From Polytrichum commune (lineage: Eukaryota; Streptophyta; Polytrichopsida; Polytrichales; Polytrichaceae), in NCBI GenBank assembly GCA_950295325.1, contig OX485809.1, positions 3,160,001 through 3,224,000 on the forward strand: a DNA stretch of 64,000 nucleotides, read 5' to 3'. Positions 15,521-61,600 of the stretch are shown piece by piece. The notes below the pieces were generated by a model that saw only the letters and a program-made list of their open reading frames with translations, did not search any database and was not told the DNA's origin. Within the stretch, counting starts at the first letter, position 1. Every line of letters starts with the position of its first letter. The translations under genes were made by a program, and so were the position numbers.

Positions 15521-16190
15521 AGCTTAGTGGGGGTGAGATAGCTCACCCTTGGAAGAAGAAGTGGAACCCCTGCTCCGATCTTAAACACATTCAGAGTTGT
15601 GCCTTATTGAATTTAATGTGAGTATTTGCTTAGATATGTTAGGCATTGATCAACATAGGTTGAATACGAGTTTTTTGTTGGAATGATTAAGGTTTAAAAG
15701 AGGAACATGGCTTCAAATCCAACTTGCAGATGTGGATTGTACAGGGCCTTATAAGGTAGAAGTACCATAACCCGTGAAAATAAGGTGGTTCGCATTGAAG
15801 ATCTGGTCTGACAATCATGAGATAATTTTCCAAGATAGGCGAGAAGGATTCATGAAGAATGCAAGTTGTTTCATATTTTTTTGCTCTATACAAAAAATGA
15901 TACAAATTTTCAAAGTGGAATGTTGTCCAAACCCTACTCATTCACTAGATTATCCCTACACCGAACACGGTAATCCGCATTTCCATACAAATGATTGCCT
16001 AAATCAGTTATCTCATGAGTACATTGACACTTGACTCCCATTGGTTACACTAAGTGTAAACGCATTGAAGTTGTCGCCGAGCCATGACCGGTTTTAGAAA
16101 TGGCACTTCACCATTGTGATGGCAGTTTAGTGCACGGCTAGAGGATGGTTAACGGGTTATGGTATTTCTACCTTAACAAGGTTCTTGGAA
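15521..16190. other. intergenic, nothing recognised
   Basis: Short ORFs at 15687-16034 are shadows of one another. No family recognised. Confidence 0.4.
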
Positions 16191-20180: not shown

Positions 20181-20646
20181 TGTATGGTAATTTAATTATT
20201 AAGAAAATGTGGGTGACTTTATGTTCATTCATCTCCTTTACTTCGCAAATAACACTATCGGCTCTTATAGTTGCGAATGAGACACTCATAGGCAATATAG
20301 CAAATTAAATTTCATTTTGCTAGGACATTAAGAGATGTTGTTGAACCAAGCTTGGGAACCGTTTGGATATAAAGTATACTTAGGGCCACCAAGGAAACAT
20401 GACTTGGCGTCCACCAAACACAACAAATTACAACTTATACTATAACATTGACGCAACTACGTGCTAAACAACTAAGGAGGGTTATTTTGTTTTCCGGTTA
20501 CTATAGTGTCCATCCCCGGAAGGGGAGAGTAGTATTGTCCAAATTTCCCCTTGTCTGGTGGGCATTGGGTCATTTGACAATACGAACGGACACTTCATTC
20601 ATGCCGGCCCCTTCAAATAGGGACCGGAGTTTCTATCATCATATAC
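20181..20646. other. intergenic, nothing recognised
   Basis: No terminal repeats or recognisable ORF. The ORF at 20448-20768 runs into the next element and is not coding in appearance. Confidence 0.4.
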
Positions 20647-20649
20647 TTA

Positions 20650-21147
20650 GGGCCACTTTACACACGAGACTGAGTGCTTGTGACCATTACACTTCAAGCA
20701 CTCTCATTGGTGGTAAACGTGGACCTGGTTCAAGTTCACTTCACACTACTCTTGAGGGACCAACATAGTATGTGAATGCAAGATGGATGCAAAGTCTACA
20801 TGGATTCCTACATGGCATCAAATGGATCATGTTTCATGGTCACTTGGAATATTTTCAAAAACCACCTTTTGTAAGTAGGCCTAACACAAAACCAGGAAAC
20901 CATCGCACTCTGAACATTCACAACCGTTGATTTGTTCTATATTATAATGTGCGAAGACCCGCATGAATAGAAATTCATTGAAATAGCATTTGATTGAGGG
21001 TCCGGTCACATATGACTTCACATTACACTTGAGGATTCGTGACCACAATACATGAATTTGGAGGTATCTTGGGACGGCCTTTGGACACTCTCTTTTGGGC
21101 GCTCACAATTTCACGGTCACAACTCTTAGCTCGTGTGTGAAGTGGCC
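20650..21147 (+). mobile_element. Harbinger/Tourist-like element, 487-bp family, copy 1
   Basis: Left end GGGCCACTTTACACACGAGA after TTA (20647-20649). Right end GCTCGTGTGTGAAGTGGCC, decayed at the duplication. Full-length match to 25119-25605 and 28526-29012. Confidence 0.85.
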
Positions 21148-22194: not shown

Positions 22195-22449
22195 TTCACC
22201 TTGACCATGAAACAAATGGCCTACCTCCAAGAGGTGGTTCTTGAGAATAGTCCAAGTGACCACGAGACATAATTCATTTGATGCCATGTAGAAATCCTTG
22301 TAGACTTTACATCCATCTTGCATTCACCTACTCCGTTGGTCCCTCAAGCGTAGTTTGAAGTGAACTTGGACCGGCTCCACCTTTTCCACCAATGAGAGTG
22401 CTTGAAGTGTAATGGTCACATGCTCTCAGTCTCATGTGTGAAGTGGCCC
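22195..22449 (-). mobile_element. Harbinger-like element, 487-bp family, truncated copy
   Basis: Minus-orientation match to about the first half of the family (GCCTACCTCCAAGAGGTG to TGTGTGAAGTGGCCC). The distal half is absent. It abuts the next element at a TTA. Confidence 0.8.
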
Positions 22450-22452
22450 TTA

Positions 22453-22962
22453 GAGCAAGCCCACTCTCCTTGCATTTGCATTTGCACTTTAACATCCGCA
22501 ATGCAGATGCAGATGCAGGGAAGTTGGCCACTCACTAACGTAAATATCAAGCACAAATGAAAATTTATGCAAGAAGCTTCGAATTCCTTGCATATGTGAG
22601 AGATATGCAGGGAGGGTTATATATAATACAATAATTTTTTTCTTAACCTTTGACCTACTGCTTTTCTCTAGTACCAGCTAGTTATAGATGAACGGGATGA
22701 GTTTGAAAAATAAACAATCGAAGTTTGAGACTCCAAAACATTAACCATCACAAATGAACCGGACGAGTTTAAGAAATAACTAGTTGAAGTTTATGACTTC
22801 ACACAATCACTTATCAGTTTAGAGGAAATTCAAAAGTTAGTATTGAAAACAATGCAAGATGAGACGCAGGTTTGCATGGGTATGCCACCAGCATCCTGGA
22901 CATACGCCAACACTTTTCATTCCCAGATGCAGATGCAGATCCAGGAACGACTGGGCTTGCTC
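22453..22962. mobile_element. Harbinger-like element with GAGCAAGCCC ends (510 bp)
   Basis: Ends GAGCAAGCCCACTC and CTGGGCTTGCTC are inverted repeats, each followed by subterminal short repeats (GCATTTGCATTTGC on the left, GATGCAGATGCAGAT on the right). TTA duplication at 22450-22452 and 22963-22965. It was inserted at the end of the truncated Harbinger-like copy. Internal ORFs are short and unrecognised. Confidence 0.8.
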
Positions 22963-25010: not shown

Positions 25011-25118
25011 TGGAGTGAAGTTATGTACGCTCACCCGACCTTCATATGACCCAAAACATCATAATGTTGCAGCCCTTGTCCATCCATCACTACCATGGAT
25101 GGAGTCCTACATAAGTAA

Positions 25119-25605
25119 GGGCCACTTCACACACAAGACTGAGAGCCCAAGACCATTGAACTTCAAGCACTCTTATTTGTGGAAAAGGTGGGACCGGTCC
25201 AAGTTCACTTTACACTACGCTTGAGGGACCAACGGAGTATGTGAATGCAAGATGGATGTAAAGTGTACAAGCATCAAAGGGTTTATGTTTCATGGTCCTT
25301 TGGACTATTTTCAAAAAATCACCTCTTGGAGGTAGGCTTAACACAGACCCAGGAGACCATGGCACTCCGAACGTTCATAACTGTTCGTTTATTCTATTTT
25401 ATCATGTGTGAGGACCCACGTGAATAGAAATTCATCATAACAACATTTGGTTCAGGGCCCGGTCACACATGACTTCACACTACAATTGAGGGTCCATGAC
25501 CACACTACATAAATTTGGAGGTGTGTTGGGATGGCCTTTGGACACTTTCTTTTGGGCTCTCACAATTTCATGGTCACGGCACTTGGCTCGTGTGTGAAGC
25601 AGCCC
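25119..25605 (+). mobile_element. Harbinger/Tourist-like element, 487-bp family, copy 2
   Basis: Left end GGGCCACTTCACACACAAGA, right end GCTCGTGTGTGAAGCAGCCC, with TAA duplications at 25116-25118 and 25606-25608. Length is identical to the copy at 28526-29012. No transposase. TWA duplications and GGGCC ends point to PIF/Harbinger. Confidence 0.9.
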
Positions 25606-25659
25606 TAATAAGCATATTGAGGTGATGGCCTCTCCCCACATGACTTTACCAAATAACTA

Positions 25660-26865: not shown

Positions 26866-27760
26866 AAGTCTTTCCTAAAAACCGGTGAAGTTCCCTCGGT
26901 TATAGGGGAGGCATCTGGCTATCCTAAATGCACCTACAAGAACTTGCTCCGGAGATTTTTAAGTAGGTTTTAGTTAAGTAGCTTTCACACATGTTCATGG
27001 TTTTATTTACCAAGCAATGACATGTTGGATAGTTTTTGTCCCATCCCCAAATCCCTTACTACTCATCTATCTTACCATCGGTTTTTGTTAATGGAACTCC
27101 TCGTGCCCTCACAACTAAGACTAAAAAGTAACCAATCACAAGGGCGGGAGACAACATGTTCAAAAGTCCTATATTCTTACCTCGTCTCTAGGTACCGATG
27201 GGAGGGTCAGTGCTTGAGGCTTAAAACCTCCACTTGTAAACCATGCCACATCATTTGCCAACCATGCTTGGCACTAGATAATGTCAACGGTGTGAAGGCC
27301 GTGTTTTTAGAACCAACTTTTAGGCTTAGCTAACTTAGGGCCGGTTTACACTACGGTGGAGAAGGCCTCCGGTTGGTCAAGAATGCGTGGCCAAGACATG
27401 GTTATATGAGGCAAATGGTGGATGTGCCGGAGAAGAATTAAAGGCAATAAAATATTTTTATTGAGTTGGGCTTCTCCGGCCTCTTGAGGCCGGACAAGAA
27501 ACTCCTCCTCCGGAGAAGCCCAACTCCAAAAAGTGCCGCCATGTAGGCGGCCATGTCATTTTATCATCCATGAGAAAAGTTCACCACCATTGTTTTCTTC
27601 ACCTAGTGTAAACACCCACCGGTCAAGAGTTGCATTTTCGACCAATCGCAATTGAGAAACGCCCTTTTTTTCATGACCGGTGGACTTCTCCACCGTAGTG
27701 TAAACTGGCCCTTAAAGTCAGGTGGGGAGGGGGCATGAGTTTTCTAGGGACGCTAGCCAC
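26866..27760 (+). repeat. dispersed repeat family R7, copy 2, with an inserted element
   Basis: 26866-27334 matches the reverse complement of 10455-10910. After the Harbinger-like insertion (27338-27711) the match resumes with GTCAGGTGGGGAGGGGGCAT, equivalent to GTCATGTGGGAAGG in copy 1. The ORF at 27022-27333 (103 codons) is the counterpart of the 10468-10782 ORF. Confidence 0.7.
27338..27711. mobile_element. Harbinger-like foldback element (374 bp)
   Basis: Ends GGGCCGGTTTACACTACGGT and ACCGTAGTGTAAACTGGCCC, with TTA at 27335-27337 and 27712-27714. The TIR continues to about 27 bp. A second hairpin lies in the middle: arms 27473-27489 and 27510-27526, 17 bp perfect, 20-nt loop. Confidence 0.9.
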
Positions 27761-27812
27761 AAACACAGTCTATGAAAAGTGTGTACAGCGCACACGCACC
27801 ATGCGTAACTTA

Positions 27813-28147
27813 GGGCATCGCCAGTGGATCTAGGTAAAGCTCACTGCAAACCAAAACCTATCTTTTGACTGACCTAAAATTAGAAACTGAAATTACCATC
27901 ATTAGAAGCACACCTAAATAAACGTGAGATATTTCTCAAGAAAAAAGAATTGTAAAAATTTGACGTAGGTGAAATCCCTCATTGAAAACACGTAGGTCAA
28001 ATTTTTACAATTCTTTTTTCTTGAGAAATATCTCACGTTTATTTAGGTGTGCTTCTAATGATGGTAATTTCAGTTTCTAATTTTAGGTCAGTCAAAAGAT
28101 AGGTTTTGGTTTGCAGTGAGCTTTACCTAGATCCACTGGTGATGCCC
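27813..28147. mobile_element. near-perfect foldback, Tourist-like (335 bp)
   Basis: Left arm 27813-27964 and right arm 27996-28147 are reverse complements over 152 bp, with a single mismatch seen (G/A near the outer end, GGGCATCGCC against GGGCATCACC). A 31-nt loop separates them. TTA duplications at 27810-27812 and 28148-28150. Ends GGGCATC.CCAGTGG match Tourist/Harbinger MITE termini. A transcript through it would fold into an almost uninterrupted duplex. Confidence 0.95.
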
Positions 28148-28150
28148 TTA

Positions 28151-28519: not shown

Positions 28520-29315
28520 CACTAAGGGTCACTTCACACTCGAGCCAAGAGCCATGACCATGAGATTGTGAGAGCCCAAAAGAAAGTGTCCAAAGGCCGT
28601 CCCAACACACCTCCTAAATCATGTTGTGTGGTCACGGACCCTCAAGTGTAGTGTGAAGTCACATGTGACCGGGCCCTCAACCAAATGCTATTTCAATGAA
28701 TTTCTATTCATGCGGGTCCTCATACATGATAATATATAATAAATCAACGACTGTGAGTGTTTGGAGTGCCATGGTCTCCCGGTTTTGTGTTGGGCCTACC
28801 TCCAAGAGGTGATTTTTTGAAAATAGTCCAAGGGACCATGAAACATGAACCATTTGTTGCTTGTAGACTTTACATCCATCTTGCATTCACCTACTCCGTT
28901 GGTCCCTCAAGCGTAGTGTAAAGAGAACTTGGACTGGCCCCGCCTTTTCCACCAATGAGAGTGCTTGAAGTGCAATGGTCACGGGCTCTCAGTCTCGTGT
29001 GTGAAGTGGCCCTAAATAGGATATTTAGTGTTTGATACACTAAATACAAATGCATACACTAAATATCGATAATCCTATGAAAGTAAGTAACATTAAATGT
29101 ACACTCAAACACTAAATATGAACTCTGGTAATATGTGGAAGTTACATATTTGAATTTAGTAGGGATATGGGGGAAAAAATGATATAAGGAGATTTCAAGC
29201 ATATCTTCTAGCATATGTTCTAACACTAATTATCAAAAAATTGAAAATTAGTGTTGAGCAGGGTAGGGTGGTAACAATATTAAATACAATCAAACACTAA
29301 ATATCGTATTTAGTA
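28520..29315 (-). mobile_element. TACACTA-type element, second family, split by a Harbinger-like insertion
   Basis: Left end TACACTAA (28518-28525) resumes after the insertion as TAAATAGGATATTTAGTGTT (29013 on). The right end CACTAAATATCGTATTTAGT reaches about 29315, with a damaged terminus. It is an inverted relative of 49279-49597 (shared ATATGTGGAAGTTA, TTGAAAATTAGTGTTGAGCA in this orientation). Net length about 310 bp. Confidence 0.75.
28526..29012 (-). mobile_element. Harbinger/Tourist-like element, 487-bp family, copy 3
   Basis: Minus-oriented full copy. Ends GGGTCACTTCACACTCGAGC and CTCGTGTGTGAAGTGGCCC, TAA duplications at 28523-28525 and 29013-29015. It is nested in the TACACTA-type element. 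Confidence 0.9.
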
Positions 29316-47447: not shown

Positions 47448-47523
47448 TACACTATTGTAGTCCAAGTGCAAAATACAGAGAGTAGCAACCAATTTTGGGC
47501 CCCATGCCCCCTTTAGGAGTTAA

Positions 47524-47744
47524 CTCTTAAAAGACATATGCTTTCCCGATACCACACCCAAAATATCTTTTAAAATTCATTTTAAGCATGATTAACCAAT
47601 TAATTTACATAGGCTTTATTCTAAAGAAGTATAGATCTTGCTAAGATGCTCGATTTGACAGTCTAAAACCCCCATTTGGTGCAATGGAGTAGAAGTTTTG
47701 AACAGGATTCTCCCAAAATAATACCAAGCATTGTCCTTTAAGGG
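47524..47744 (+). mobile_element. TTAA-flanked short element, copy 1 (221 bp)
   Basis: Ends CTCTTAAAAGACATATGC and GCATTGTCCTTTAAGGG, TTAA on both sides (47520-47523, 47745-47748). The whole element is an inverted relative of 49961-50193. Confidence 0.8.
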
Positions 47745-47748
47745 TTAA

Positions 47749-48042
47749 ACATAATGAATGAACCCCTAACTGAACTGGCAGCCAGTGTCTCTCTTCTTCT
47801 ATATTTTTGCGGAATGAAGTACAAATAAGTTATTTGTTTTTTTTCCCCGGCTTCCCAACCGCCGGATAGAAATTCACGGTTCTCTGTCTTTAGGTCTCTC
47901 TTCTAAAGTGCCTCGGAATGGAAGGTTGTAAGGCATTTCAGGGACACCATCAGTGCCTTTGGAAAATTCTACTTCTTTTGTGCTTTATGGCCACTTTATA
48001 TACACAGCTTGGGCCAGCCCGTTTCATGTACAGTAGATTCAT
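47749..48042. other. intergenic, nothing recognised
   Basis: No feature. Confidence 0.4.
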
Positions 48043-48045
48043 TAA

Positions 48046-48426
48046 GGGTGAGGTTCCATGTAGGCCGCTGACCCACTAGATTTTAGTGTAAATAAGGTAA
48101 ATGCCAACCAAATGTAGAGGGAATTTAGTAGGGTAGGGTTTGTATGTGTCAACTATCTACTCCCAACTGCTCAAATCCGGGGCCACAAATTAATCTTCTC
48201 CTCCTTCTAAAACTTGTTTTCCAAACCTTTGGTGATTGGCCCTTGTAGGTTGAAGGTCCTTTAGTGGATGCCTAGGAGTCTAGCAGCCCGTGTCCATGAA
48301 CCTCCACATTCTAGTGAACCGTTAGAATGTGGTTGGAGGGTGGCTTGAGTTTTATTACATGTGAACACCTCCAACCAACTATTTCCTAGAATCTAGTGGG
48401 CGAGTGGCCGACATGGAAACTCACCC
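48046..48426. mobile_element. Harbinger-like element with GGGTGAG ends (381 bp)
   Basis: Ends GGGTGAGGTTCCATGTAGGC and GCCGACATGGAAACTCACCC, TAA duplications at 48043-48045 and 48427-48429. Internal inverted motifs CCACTAGATT/AATCTAGTGGG and CCAACCAAATG/CATTCTAACGG-type match are partial. A fragment is at 12660-12772. Confidence 0.85.
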
Positions 48427-48429
48427 TAA

Positions 48430-49276
48430 GCCCTCCAACATGGAAACTTCCAACATGGCACTACATTTATTGTGCCATGTCACTCTACTTTATTGCCAAG
48501 TAGATCCCGAAGCAATATCCAAAGCAAAATCCAAAGCTAAAAAGTCATTGTTGCCACTCCCCATACTTCCTCTCATGCAACCACTTGCTCATTTGAACCA
48601 ATGCTATTCATCCAACTCACTGCCATTCATGCAAGTTTCCTACCATGTGGTTTGGGCCTAAGTTTATTACCTAGTGAGTGCTATGTGTTCTATATGGAGA
48701 AGCTCTTCTTGTGAAGAGATAGAGAGAGAAAGAGGAAATTACCACATGCATGTGAGCATGCCTCTCATTCATCCAAGATAAAAGCCTTCAAATACTATGT
48801 AGCTTGGTGGTTATTATCTTTAGTCGATTTAACATTGGATAAAGTTTATAATGATTCTATATTAGTCTAGTCCAAGTCATTTGAGATGAATTGGCCACAA
48901 ATTTAGGGGGAGAGGGGTTTCAAGTTTTTCATATTGGATGGATGAGAGGTACATCAATATGCGTTCATTCCCTCTCTCTCTCTTCTCATCCAATTTTTAT
49001 AGGTTTGGTAAAGTGAAGGGAGGATGACATGTGCCTCGTGCAATTCCCTTGCAATTCAACATAATGAAACTTTCGTTTCCATTTCACATTTCACATAAAC
49101 ACAATTTAATGATTTGAATAATTTCTCCTTAAAGAATTCCGGTATTTTTGTATATGTAAGCGTTTCAAAAGTCATATTTGCCCTGATTGAAAGGATTTTC
49201 ATTGCACTGAAGAAAAAGAAAGAGCAAAGGCTCATTTATTGGCCAAAACCATAAGCATTGGAATTCTCATGAACAC
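48430..49276. other. intergenic, nothing recognised
   Basis: CT-rich patch around 48972-48990. No gene. Confidence 0.4.
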
Positions 49277-49278
49277 TA

Positions 49279-49597
49279 CACTAAAAAAGATATTTAGTGC
49301 TTGATTATATTTAATGTTGTTACCATCTTACCATGCTCAATACTAATTTTCAATTCCTTGATAATTAGTGTTAGACATAAATGCGCCGCTACATTTCCTA
49401 TTGCCATCTCCCTTATTATATCTTTTTTTTTCATATCCTTACTAGCACTAAATTCAAGCATATAACTTCTACATATTACTATAGTTGATATTTAGTGTTT
49501 GACTTTACATCTAATGTTACTTACTTTCATAGGGTTATTGACATTTACTGTATGGGTTCGTATTTAGTTTATCAAACACTAAATATCATTTTTAGTG
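49279..49597 (+). mobile_element. TACACTA-type element, second family (319 bp)
   Basis: Ends CACTAAAAAAGATATTTAGT and ACTAAATATCATTTTTAGTG, TA flanks at 49277-49278 and 49598-49599. Same family, opposite orientation, as 28520-29315. Confidence 0.85.
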
Positions 49598-49599
49598 TA

Positions 49600-49956
49600 C
49601 TTGTTAAGTGTTTTTTGGAATGTGATCATGTGCACATCATTTAGAAGTTTGTTTTGGACTTGCAATTCACAATTGTAGACTTTTGACTTAGGTGTGACCA
49701 ACACCTTTGAGAAATCATAGGAGTTTATACATCAATTGATAGAGTACAATAATTGCATTGGAATCGAGTTGTAAGTAGTTGTCGTCCACCTTAGTATGTA
49801 GTTGCTTGCTTCTAAGTCCAACATAATAACAAAGTGTGCATGATTGATTGAGACCAAGAATGTAAAAGAGACTAAAATAATTGGACATCATGTTGTTGTA
49901 AAAAAATATTATATCAACATCAAGTGAACTTCAAAATTTTCAATGAATGTCGAGTA
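49600..49956. other. intergenic, nothing recognised
   Basis: No feature. Confidence 0.4.
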
Positions 49957-49960
49957 TTAA

Positions 49961-50193
49961 CCCTTAAAGAACAATGCTGCCCCACGGGCTTGGTGTTATT
50001 TTGGGAGAATCTTGTTCAAAACTTCTACTTCATTGCACCAAATGGGGTTTTTAGAATGCCAAATCGAGCACCTTAGCAAGATCTATACTTCTTTAGAATA
50101 GAGCCTATGTAAATTAATTGGTTAATCATGCTTAAAATGAATTTTAAAATATATTTTGGGTGTGGTATTGGGAAAGCATATGTCCTTTAAGGG
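49961..50193 (-). mobile_element. TTAA-flanked short element, copy 2 (233 bp)
   Basis: Ends CCCTTAAAGAACAATGC and GCATATGTCCTTTAAGGG, TTAA at 49957-49960 and 50194-50197. The internal sequence is the reverse complement of copy 1 with few changes (CTTAGCAAGATCTATACTTC, TTAATTGGTTAATCATGC). Confidence 0.85.
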
Positions 50194-50269
50194 TTAAGGT
50201 AACACCTTTTGATGAGGTTGAAAGGTTGAAACCAAGATCTATGCACTTCAAGGGGTCCCACTCAATAAA

Positions 50270-58668: not shown

Positions 58669-61600
58669 ATGAAGAACCTTCTTGCGGTCTGTTTCATTAC
58701 ATTTTTGCTGTTCCTGCAATCACGTTTAGCGGCTGCGTTTCTCGTGAGCGCAGCGTCGCAAGCGTTTTCAGCAGGTCAGGCCCTGGCCTCCTCCTTCTCC
58801 TGCAATTGCTGTTTTCACTCTTTTTTTTGGGTTTTTATGTTTCAAAGTTATATGGTTGGGTCTACAATTGTGCTTATTGACCTTTTCGTGAGACCAGTCG
58901 TAAGGAGGTAGCCGTTGGAGCCTGTGCGTGAAAGCTGAAAGCTGAAAGCTGAAGGGATGAACGTGTTGGCTTATGTATGTGTGCAGGAGGACACAATGGT
59001 TACTCGGCGGAGGAATTCAACGTCATGCGACACCGCACAATTCTGCGGGACGAAGTTGCGGCAAGGTTGCAAGAGCTCGGCAATGTAAATTTACTCTCTC
59101 TCTCTCTCTCTATATATATTTATGTATATCTCTGTGGACACAGGGAATCGGGACGGATCTGCTGACTTTTGCAACAAATTGCAACAAATTCCTCGTGTAT
59201 GTGTGTGCAAGATAGATAGAGTCTGTTAGTTTACAGAGGTTACCATAGTTGCCTTCTATTGAGCGTTTTGTCTTCATGGCTACTCAACATTGTGCTTACA
59301 TTGTGGCATGGTTACGTTGTGTTTGTTTGCAGGTAAGTGACTCGAACGAGTTTCTGGAACGCACATTTCTTAGCCCCGCCGCTGTGAGGGCCGGCCTCCT
59401 GATTTCGTCGTGGATGAGAGACGCTGGTCTTTTCACGTATGTACCCAGCCCCCTGCCAAGTCTTGCAGAGAGAGAGAGAGAGAGAGAGAGAGGTTTCATT
59501 GAGCTGGAAATTGTCCATTCCTCTGTGCAGATATTAGCTGTGCTGTTTTCATGGTTGGGGTTTGGCAGCAAGTCTGAAAGATTGAATTTGTTGGGATTGC
59601 AGATGGGAAGATGCTATGGGAAACGTGCATGGTCGCTCCAACGGTGCCAACGCCACTGCACCGGCTCTTCTCCTAGGCTCTCATTATGTATGCACTTCAC
59701 TCTTCAGATTTATCCCTTCATTGATATATACATGTATGTATGTATGTGTGTGTGTGTGTTCAGTGAACTTGTTTGGTTTCTGAACATTCTCCCTCTTAAA
59801 CATTTGTGGATTTCTCTCTTCCACACATCTTCGTACTGCAAAAACCGTTTAGGTGTGGAGTGTTCCTCCTCTTCATGAATCTTCTGGAAGGATGTTAAAG
59901 AAGAGGATGGTGTTGTGTGTATTTTCGCATTTACCGAGCTCATTGGTGGGGTTGATGCAACAGGACACAGTCATCGATGCAGGAAAGTATGATGGTGCAT
60001 TGGGTATTGTTGCAGCAATTGCAGCTGTCAAGGCTTTGAAAGCGGAGGGAAAATTGCAACAGTTTCCTCGTCCCATTGAGGTTGGTTCTGCTCAACTTTG
60101 TCTCCACAGTAGAAATGGAGTCATGTCCTGCGGCTTCCTTTGTTTCTGGCTCATCGAAGATAGGAATTGGAAACTGACCGTGTCGGTCGAATACAGATTA
60201 TTGCGTTTAGTGATGAGGAGGGAGTTCGATTCCAGACCACATTCCTTGGAAGCAGTGCTGTTTCGGGAACTTTCAAGCCTAAGTACTTGATGGGCGAAGA
60301 TGCAAGGTTAGTTCACTACTTCCATAGCATTTTCTTACTCCATGACACCACATGCACACGATTCAATGTAAATTTTTGAGAAGTAGGAAACACTTGTTTT
60401 CACTTTGACTATGAGGAAGAACATGTAACACTATGCTGCTGAGGTAGATCCCTGACGCGAAGAAGCGGGGTGGATCTTATAATTTTGCATACATTTGCAA
60501 TGTTTTCAGTGAGAGTTGCCTAGAACTACCTTCTTGGTGTATGTGAGAGTAGGTTCTAAATTAAATATATGTACTATCTTGTCATTTCAGAGGAATATCT
60601 GTTGGAGCTGCTCTGAAGGCGGCCTCACATGAAGGGAGTATGGAAAGCGTTGCAGCTATCAGATACAAGCCTGATTCAGTTTGGGGTTACGTTGAGGTAT
60701 GAAACTGCTTCCATTGTCAAAGCCGCTATTTCAGTGTCCATCTTTTGAAGGAGACATTGAAATTAATTGCTGCCCGTGGGAATGTCTGTGCAGTTGCATA
60801 TAGAACAGGGGCCTGTTCTGGAAGCAGAAGGGCTTCCCTTAGGAGTTGTTGAAGCAATTGCTGGTCAAACACGGTTAACGGTGAGCATCATGAACACTCA
60901 TGTTTCTTACCTCTTGTCTTTGAATATGGGTTGTTTGTTTGCAATCCTGGCCTTGGCTGTGACGCTATTCTCATGAAATGCTGAACTTATTGGAGTCATC
61001 CTCCCTAACTCTATGGGACGTCAAGTTGGGAGTTGGTTCCCGATGCTTTTCATTTGGTTGTTTTGCATACAATACATATCGTTTTTTTCCTTCTTGTGAT
61101 AGTGCATGCTTGGAGGTAGTGTTCGAATTTTAATGACGAGCAACCTATTTCATGCAGTTCATTAGAGAGCCAAATTCATTTTAGTAGCACCTCTTGGCAT
61201 GCCAACATGAGTTTGATCCTCAATGAACCGATATACAATTTACTTCGTTTATATTTCCACACTAACTCCAAATATGGATCTTGAACTTACCGAACATGGA
61301 AGGTGTTGTATACAAATCAACCAACTCCCGACCAAAAGTCATTTTGAGTTAGAGGATAACTCCATAACTACGAGTCTACCTCTAGTCAACTAATTTTGTT
61401 GCAGCATGTTTGTACTCTATGAATTCTTACAGTTTGTAACCACTGGATCTTTACTAACCTGATGGGTTTTGGGTTTTTGTGTGTAAAAGGTGCGAGTTCG
61501 GGGATCACAAGGACATGCAGGCACAGTGCCCATGACAATGCGGAGGGATCCTATGATAGCAGCTGCCCAATCTATTGTGGCCATTGAGAATATCTGCACG

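Follow-up and report, generated by a model that had tools for sequence, protein, structure and literature searches.

The 64,000-nucleotide stretch of DNA analysed here (the window) carried a 335-bp foldback at positions 27813-28147, and the question was why its two arms were almost identical. In the original prediction, the foldback was given 152-bp arms with one mismatch and TTA on both sides, and all of this was confirmed upon realignment. The arm-to-arm comparison placed the arms of 152 bp each at 27813-27964 and 27996-28147, with a 31-nt loop between them at 27965-27995. Their sole difference was G at left-arm position 27820 versus A, the right-arm site being 28140. A repeat finder described the same foldback as 166-nt arms that were 98% complementary and 17 nt apart. 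The target site duplications were TTA at 27810-27812 on the left and TTA at 28148-28150 on the right. By our judgement, chance was far from a plausible origin, in 64 kb, for inverted arms of 152 bp that differ at a single position. It had also been stated that every other element here had heavily diverged ends. This was roughly right within the window, where nine other inverted pairs (at least 40 nt, within 3 kb) were 70-94% complementary, but it did not hold for the family of the foldback, in which near-perfect arms were the rule.

Several other features of the window were recorded. Inverted 210-nt arms with 94% complementarity, separated by 2258 nt, were located at 47520-50197. At 27337-27712, about 100 bp left of the foldback, lay an element of roughly 376 bp that was flanked by TTA on either side and whose inverted ends were AGGGCCGGTTTACACTAC..GTAAACTGGCCCT. 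A repeat of roughly 490 bp with AGGGCCACTTCACAC-type ends was represented around the foldback by four related stretches in both orientations (20646-21144, 22218-22453, 25116-25606, and 28525-29015), of which one was short. An exon-like open reading frame at 59853-60287 weakly resembled chains of ureidoglycolate hydrolase (E 0.024) and had no Pfam match. The Pfam search on six open reading frames of the window gave 0 families, and the tRNA scan of the window gave 0 tRNAs.

The predicted RNA energy of the 335-nt foldback was -274 kcal/mol. Such a very stable fold would suit a hairpin maintained by selection as an siRNA or miRNA-like precursor, and a passage of PMC3086885 put the share of MITEs among 92 TE-related miRNA loci of rice at 80%. 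However, the Rfam scan of the window gave 0 matches at gathering score, and the copy studied here was conserved no better than its siblings. We regarded selection for small RNAs as a very improbable cause of the arm identity.

The foldback was predicted to be Tourist-like, and its form bore this out, with a target duplication of 3 bp and terminal repeats. In the 60 loci of its subfamily, which is defined below, the left target triplet was TTA in 32, TAA in 21, TCA in 4, TGA in 2, and CAA in 1. The right triplet was the same as the left in 30 of the 33 two-ended copies, and in these copies the target duplication enclosed a terminal inverted repeat at either end. No listed stop-to-stop open reading frame of at least 130 aa overlapped the 335-bp element, which was short and non-coding. 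The family ends read GGGCATCGCC, GGGCATCTGTAG, or GAGCATCCTCAG, and the motif G(N)5GTT at the terminal repeat start was absent from them. In contrast, a passage of PMC2213677 gave this motif as a condition for mining Tourist-like elements in Medicago, which does not establish it as universal. Because the ends were without G(N)5GTT, the element was filed as Tourist-like in form only, that is, as a putative non-autonomous DNA transposon of this kind.

A copy search across the genome had been proposed, and it was performed in a space of 408 Mb and 64 contigs, seven contigs of 42-78 Mb among them. The search by DNA similarity gave 389 candidates, of which 40 were scored. The foldback recurred elsewhere in the genome and had many relatives. 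The exact 30-bp CGCC end was found at 78 sites with 0 reversed-control matches, which gave 55 loci. The CGCC subfamily of 60 loci (GGGCATCGCC-type ends) consisted of these 55, four loci without the exact end from the similarity search (L021, L026, L040, and L041), and L064 from a looser end pattern. By our own classification, nine of the 60 were two-ended and nearly full, 24 were two-ended and deleted, 26 were one-ended, and L026 was a hybrid whose right end lay at 394, so it was not counted among the one-ended halves. The notion that 55-60 loci were the whole family was ruled out by an inner-arm word that had 359 exact sites genome-wide. Control subfamilies were therefore examined.

The CGCC subfamily descends from a palindrome of 517 bp whose centre is a single base. 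The nine nearly full copies were 515-528 bp long, each with two nearly full 258-bp arms, and the two-ended copies L013 and L014 had the one-base centre. The exact symmetric centre word was found only in these two and in the half L035, so that two-ended survivors were 2 of 60. The symmetric arm end had 29 sites, all inside already known CGCC loci upon hand check. In addition, the 23 paired CGCC loci had 17 different lengths. The original prediction had overlooked that this palindrome is the full form, of which the foldback in the window shows only a shortened version, and that the majority of copies have been broken or shortened, usually centrally.

The anatomy of the foldback was read against this parent. 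It was 182 bp shorter than the 517-bp form. Its left arm on the plus strand (27813-27991) corresponded to consensus arm positions 1-179 and was 100% identical in many other copies, and the loop was mostly the inner part of this arm. Its right arm on the minus strand (27996-28147) corresponded to arm positions 1-152 reversed and was kept to about 152, or to 159 if the junction scar was counted. The scar was GTAG on the plus strand (27992-27995). GTAG stood at both the start and the end of the loop, and the last one occupied the place of CTAC in the parent. The scar was probably produced by a 4-bp inversion of the right-arm CTAC or by a templated insertion from the GTAG at 27965-27968. Since the 182 bp around the centre were lost, this copy was a survivor without the symmetric centre. 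It had no breakpoint at the palindrome centre itself, because the left arm ran to 179 and the right to about 152-159.

The breakpoints of the other CGCC copies were concentrated at the centre. In the case of the one-ended halves, 24 of 26 ended at consensus 248-270, within 11 bp of the centre at 259 (binomial 4e-30 against a uniform break). The exceptions were L044 at 224 and L061 at 140. The listed end of L033 at 252 was due to a base change, and its arm truly ran to 261; L037 had an additional short inverted arm piece inside. Seventeen of the 26 extended beyond the centre base, all with a symmetric C[T/A]G centre, and the remaining nine ended at or before this base (L028 and L058 on it), where the centre type is unreadable. 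The asymmetric TTTTTGA centre was present in none of the CGCC halves. The 24 two-ended deletions represented 21 types by hand classing (L007=L057; L011=L012=L015). In 17 of the 21, one arm ended about 12 bp or less from the centre and the other was cut short, which gave 6e-10 even when the deletion was required to span the centre. The four types without a central breakpoint were the foldback of the window, L006, L045, and L059; that the foldback itself is among them counts against central breakage as its history. The occurrence of the same derivatives at different target sites suggested that two-ended deletion forms still moved. A locus with one end, in contrast, should have been unable to move in that form, so each of the 26 halves was probably a separate event. 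L016 carried three TTTAGGG telomere-like units at the palindrome centre (locus 1246-1300), such as break repair could leave. Together with the types of element present, these units suggested that the genome is that of a plant. As a separate observation, the deletion junction of L059 (1-777) carried CACCTACGTCAAATTT in three tandem copies.

Two other origins of the one-ended loci were considered and rejected. They were not large elements with a distant right end, as neither GATGCCC nor GATGCTC with the left triplet behind it was found downstream, over about 7 kb for 15 of the 26 and over about 700-800 bp for the other 11. Their flanks were not inverted duplications round the break, as 4-17 of the 40 flank bases nearest to the insert were mirror-identical in the 60 loci. 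BLAST mirror matches in 8 loci were located away from the insert.

The target sites were relevant to when the halves were formed. One possibility is that they were formed at insertion: the excised palindrome would break centrally, the transposase would join one terminal repeat, the host would join the broken end, and resident copies would break no chromosome. L044 was consistent with this. Its one-ended insert had TTA on both sides, and insert-free matching sites were found in L031 and in the window, the latter being a paralogous empty site on another chromosome (16043-16060, minus strand, outside the foldback). This meant that no target was lost at L044. In addition, a single terminal repeat should not remobilise, which would make each half a separate event, and 26 of 60 are many for later breakage. 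However, in 5 of the 26 halves the target triplet reappeared in the 10 nt that follow the break, when 3.9 were expected from their own downstream DNA. L044 was thus not the rule, and there was no general trace of a second duplicate. The right flank of L032 began within a repeat whose leftward continuation was absent beside the insert, which indicated loss or joining of DNA; its junction shared 3 nt (AGA), and the original right flank was known in few halves. The joined flanks of L038, L040, L054, and L062 aligned to partial repeats, and the evidence from empty sites was thin overall. We considered formation at insertion rather unlikely as the explanation of the halves.

The arms were then compared across the subfamily. 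In the 33 two-ended CGCC copies, arms were unequal at 32 of 5136 compared positions, so the 1/152 mismatch of the foldback was ordinary for the family. The subfamily is young, since its 93 arms were off consensus at only 99 of 20031 bases (0.49%). Youth alone, in which a fresh MITE insertion has arms without time to diverge, would fit this low divergence and the closeness of 1/152 to the family mean. It leaves unexplained the central breakpoints and the private paired changes, and we considered it unlikely as a full account. These changes came from 11 positions in CGCC copies at which both arms had the same non-consensus base. Nine of the positions were private, in eight copies (L010, L014, L017, L021, L022, L047, L056 twice, and L059). 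As independent double mutation is very unlikely to produce this, the changes indicated that the arms were corrected or remade from each other. Arm correction was not universal, because the 19 copies of the sister subfamily had 0 paired and 18 unpaired changes. The original prediction had offered very recent insertion or gene conversion. Both parts stood, as the subfamily was young and the arms were corrected or remade, but the two were not alternatives. Because one arm may be corrected by the other or remade from it, the arm identity of a foldback MITE is no simple clock of its insertion.

The sister subfamily, whose arms nearly equal those of the CGCC subfamily, gave the main contrast. Its GGGCATCTGTAG ends were found at 101 sites, and the 100 of these that were listed gave 65 loci. 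Among the matches listed, all 35 paired loci were exactly 517 bp, 20 and L065 being read in sequence and 14 judged by length alone. The sister centre was CCAAATTT TTGA CATTTAG. The two arms mismatched at 251, 256, and 258, and frequently at 221 or 205 as well. From the 30 single loci among the matches listed, 22 were read (20 with L071 and L073): six were of the 517 type with a changed right end, 13 were of a shared 395-bp form, and three were broken, namely L110 at its asymmetric centre, L113 at 52, and L120 at 308. Broken copies were thus 3 of 57 examined sister loci, counting the 13 of the shared 395-bp form as unbroken, versus 46 of 55 broken or shortened exact-end CGCC loci (Fisher 1.5e-18). 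For halves only, the numbers were 3 of 57 versus 23 of 55 (3.5e-6). When shared deletion forms were counted once and the 395-bp form was omitted, the contrast was still 6.6e-15, with the 21 deletion types including L021 from outside the exact-end set.

Another control consisted of 20 inner-arm loci that were not yet in the set (L065-L084). Most of them were the earliest listed on contig C1, and all were selected for an intact inner arm (100 of 359 sites listed). Their centre was unbroken in 20 of 20, and a right end with the same triplet after it was present in 19 of 20, L071 having none. Fifteen of them were 394-395 bp long with GAGCATCC ends. The GAGCATCC, GGGCATCTGTAG, and GGGCATCGCC ends matched at both ends in L065, L081, and L082, whose bodies were nearly identical, and L026, L050, and L073 each had two ends unlike each other. 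These end variants suggested end exchange or conversion between subfamilies.

It was examined whether age could account for the contrast. Sister bases were off consensus at 18 of 9823, or at 7 without shared sites; L100, a sister copy with indels, was excluded from substitution counts. The CGCC divergence without shared sites was about 0.32% by hand estimate. Judged by sequence divergence, the sister subfamily is the younger one. Under age scaling, which assumes a constant breakage rate, total sister breakage was 3 seen versus 19-28 expected (18.6 at an age ratio of 4.6, 6e-7), and centre halves were 1 seen versus 6-9 expected, with P 0.02-0.0005 (5.7 and 0.018 at ratio 4.6). Halves of all kinds were 3 seen versus 6.4 expected at the larger age ratio of 4.6 (P 0.11). 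Total breakage differed between the subfamilies beyond age, and centre breakage did so more weakly. For halves as such, a difference beyond age may be absent.

The same data were used to evaluate an assembly artefact, in which reads are cut or misjoined at perfect palindromes and the halves and odd junctions are unreal. The concentration of breaks in the copies that are hardest to assemble is in line with it. However, the near-perfect 517-bp sister pairs were assembled cleanly (35 of 35 among the matches listed), as were the perfect L013 and L014, and no N was present in the loci checked for it or in the window. The halves also ended at differing points, and L044 had its target duplication and empty sites. 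An artefact was considered quite improbable.

We favour, as the probable reading, that perfect symmetry led to central breakage and that the foldback of the window is a deletion-stabilised survivor of the CGCC subfamily. Its observed basis was the structures, the copy table, the breakpoint positions, and the sister contrast; cruciform cutting, end joining, and the order of events are what we infer. The sister forms suggested that the ancestor was a 517-bp imperfect palindrome whose inner arm ends differed near the centre. In the CGCC subfamily, one inner arm end would have been rewritten to match the other, giving the one-base-centre palindrome seen in L013 and L014. Palindromes are known for breaking at the centre. 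By extrusion, the perfect centre might form a hairpin or cruciform whose tip would then be cut, either during transposition or later. End joining of an arm intact to the centre with a shortened second arm would give a two-ended derivative, and its joining to unrelated DNA would give a one-ended half. In the foldback studied here, the sequence around the centre would have been removed from both arms with the 4-bp scar remaining, and it is now an interrupted foldback that is presumably stabler. Its arms would be alike because of a young family and occasional mutual arm correction. The full sequence of steps stands at about an even chance in our estimate: arm correction produced the perfect 517-bp palindrome, its centre broke at or after insertion in some 24 independent halves, and centre-deleted survivors remained, with the sister, which has three mismatches beside its centre, amplified mostly whole.

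To our knowledge, work on palindromes that break at the centre has dealt mainly with human PATRRs, with transgenes, and with yeast and bacteria. The present family seems to be a natural experiment at dozens of places in one genome, with a control in its sister, which is set apart by few bases that lie mostly in the centre and the tips. It makes testable the protection of a hairpin-forming transposon by central asymmetry, the curbing by MITEs of their own spread through excess symmetry, and the role of foldback MITEs as a source of chromosome rearrangement.

The family was compared with known systems. Tourist-like MITEs, which are associated with PIF/Harbinger, are likewise short and non-coding with terminal inverted repeats, a TTA/TAA 3-bp duplication, and high copy number. 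In contrast, the arms of the full form here reach the centre. Centre-break stabilisation, in which central symmetry is lost through rearrangement at the centre, was reportedly described by Cunningham et al. 2003; the present case differs in that the copies are natural transposons and one-ended products are frequent. Centre breakage in MITEs came up nowhere in our literature search, which is no proof of absence, and nothing was found for the end sequence or for perfect palindromic MITEs. A 2025 plant MITE review (PMC12595863) had no word starting with 'palindrom' and one starting with 'hairpin', and its passage about structural variants invoked recombination. Galileo of Drosophila is also foldback-like with solo-TIR copies, but the passage of PMC3573991 on it made no claim of breaks at the palindrome centre. 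A passage of the palindrome review PMC7999016 described a loop at the centre of symmetry. A further likeness was to the human PATRRs of recurrent translocations, for which a part of PMC4255720 described symmetric alleles breaking at the centre of symmetry and an asymmetrically deleted allele. The deletions at PATRR breaks were described there as symmetric, whereas those found here were mostly one-sided and occurred in dozens of dispersed mobile copies of a plant-like genome.
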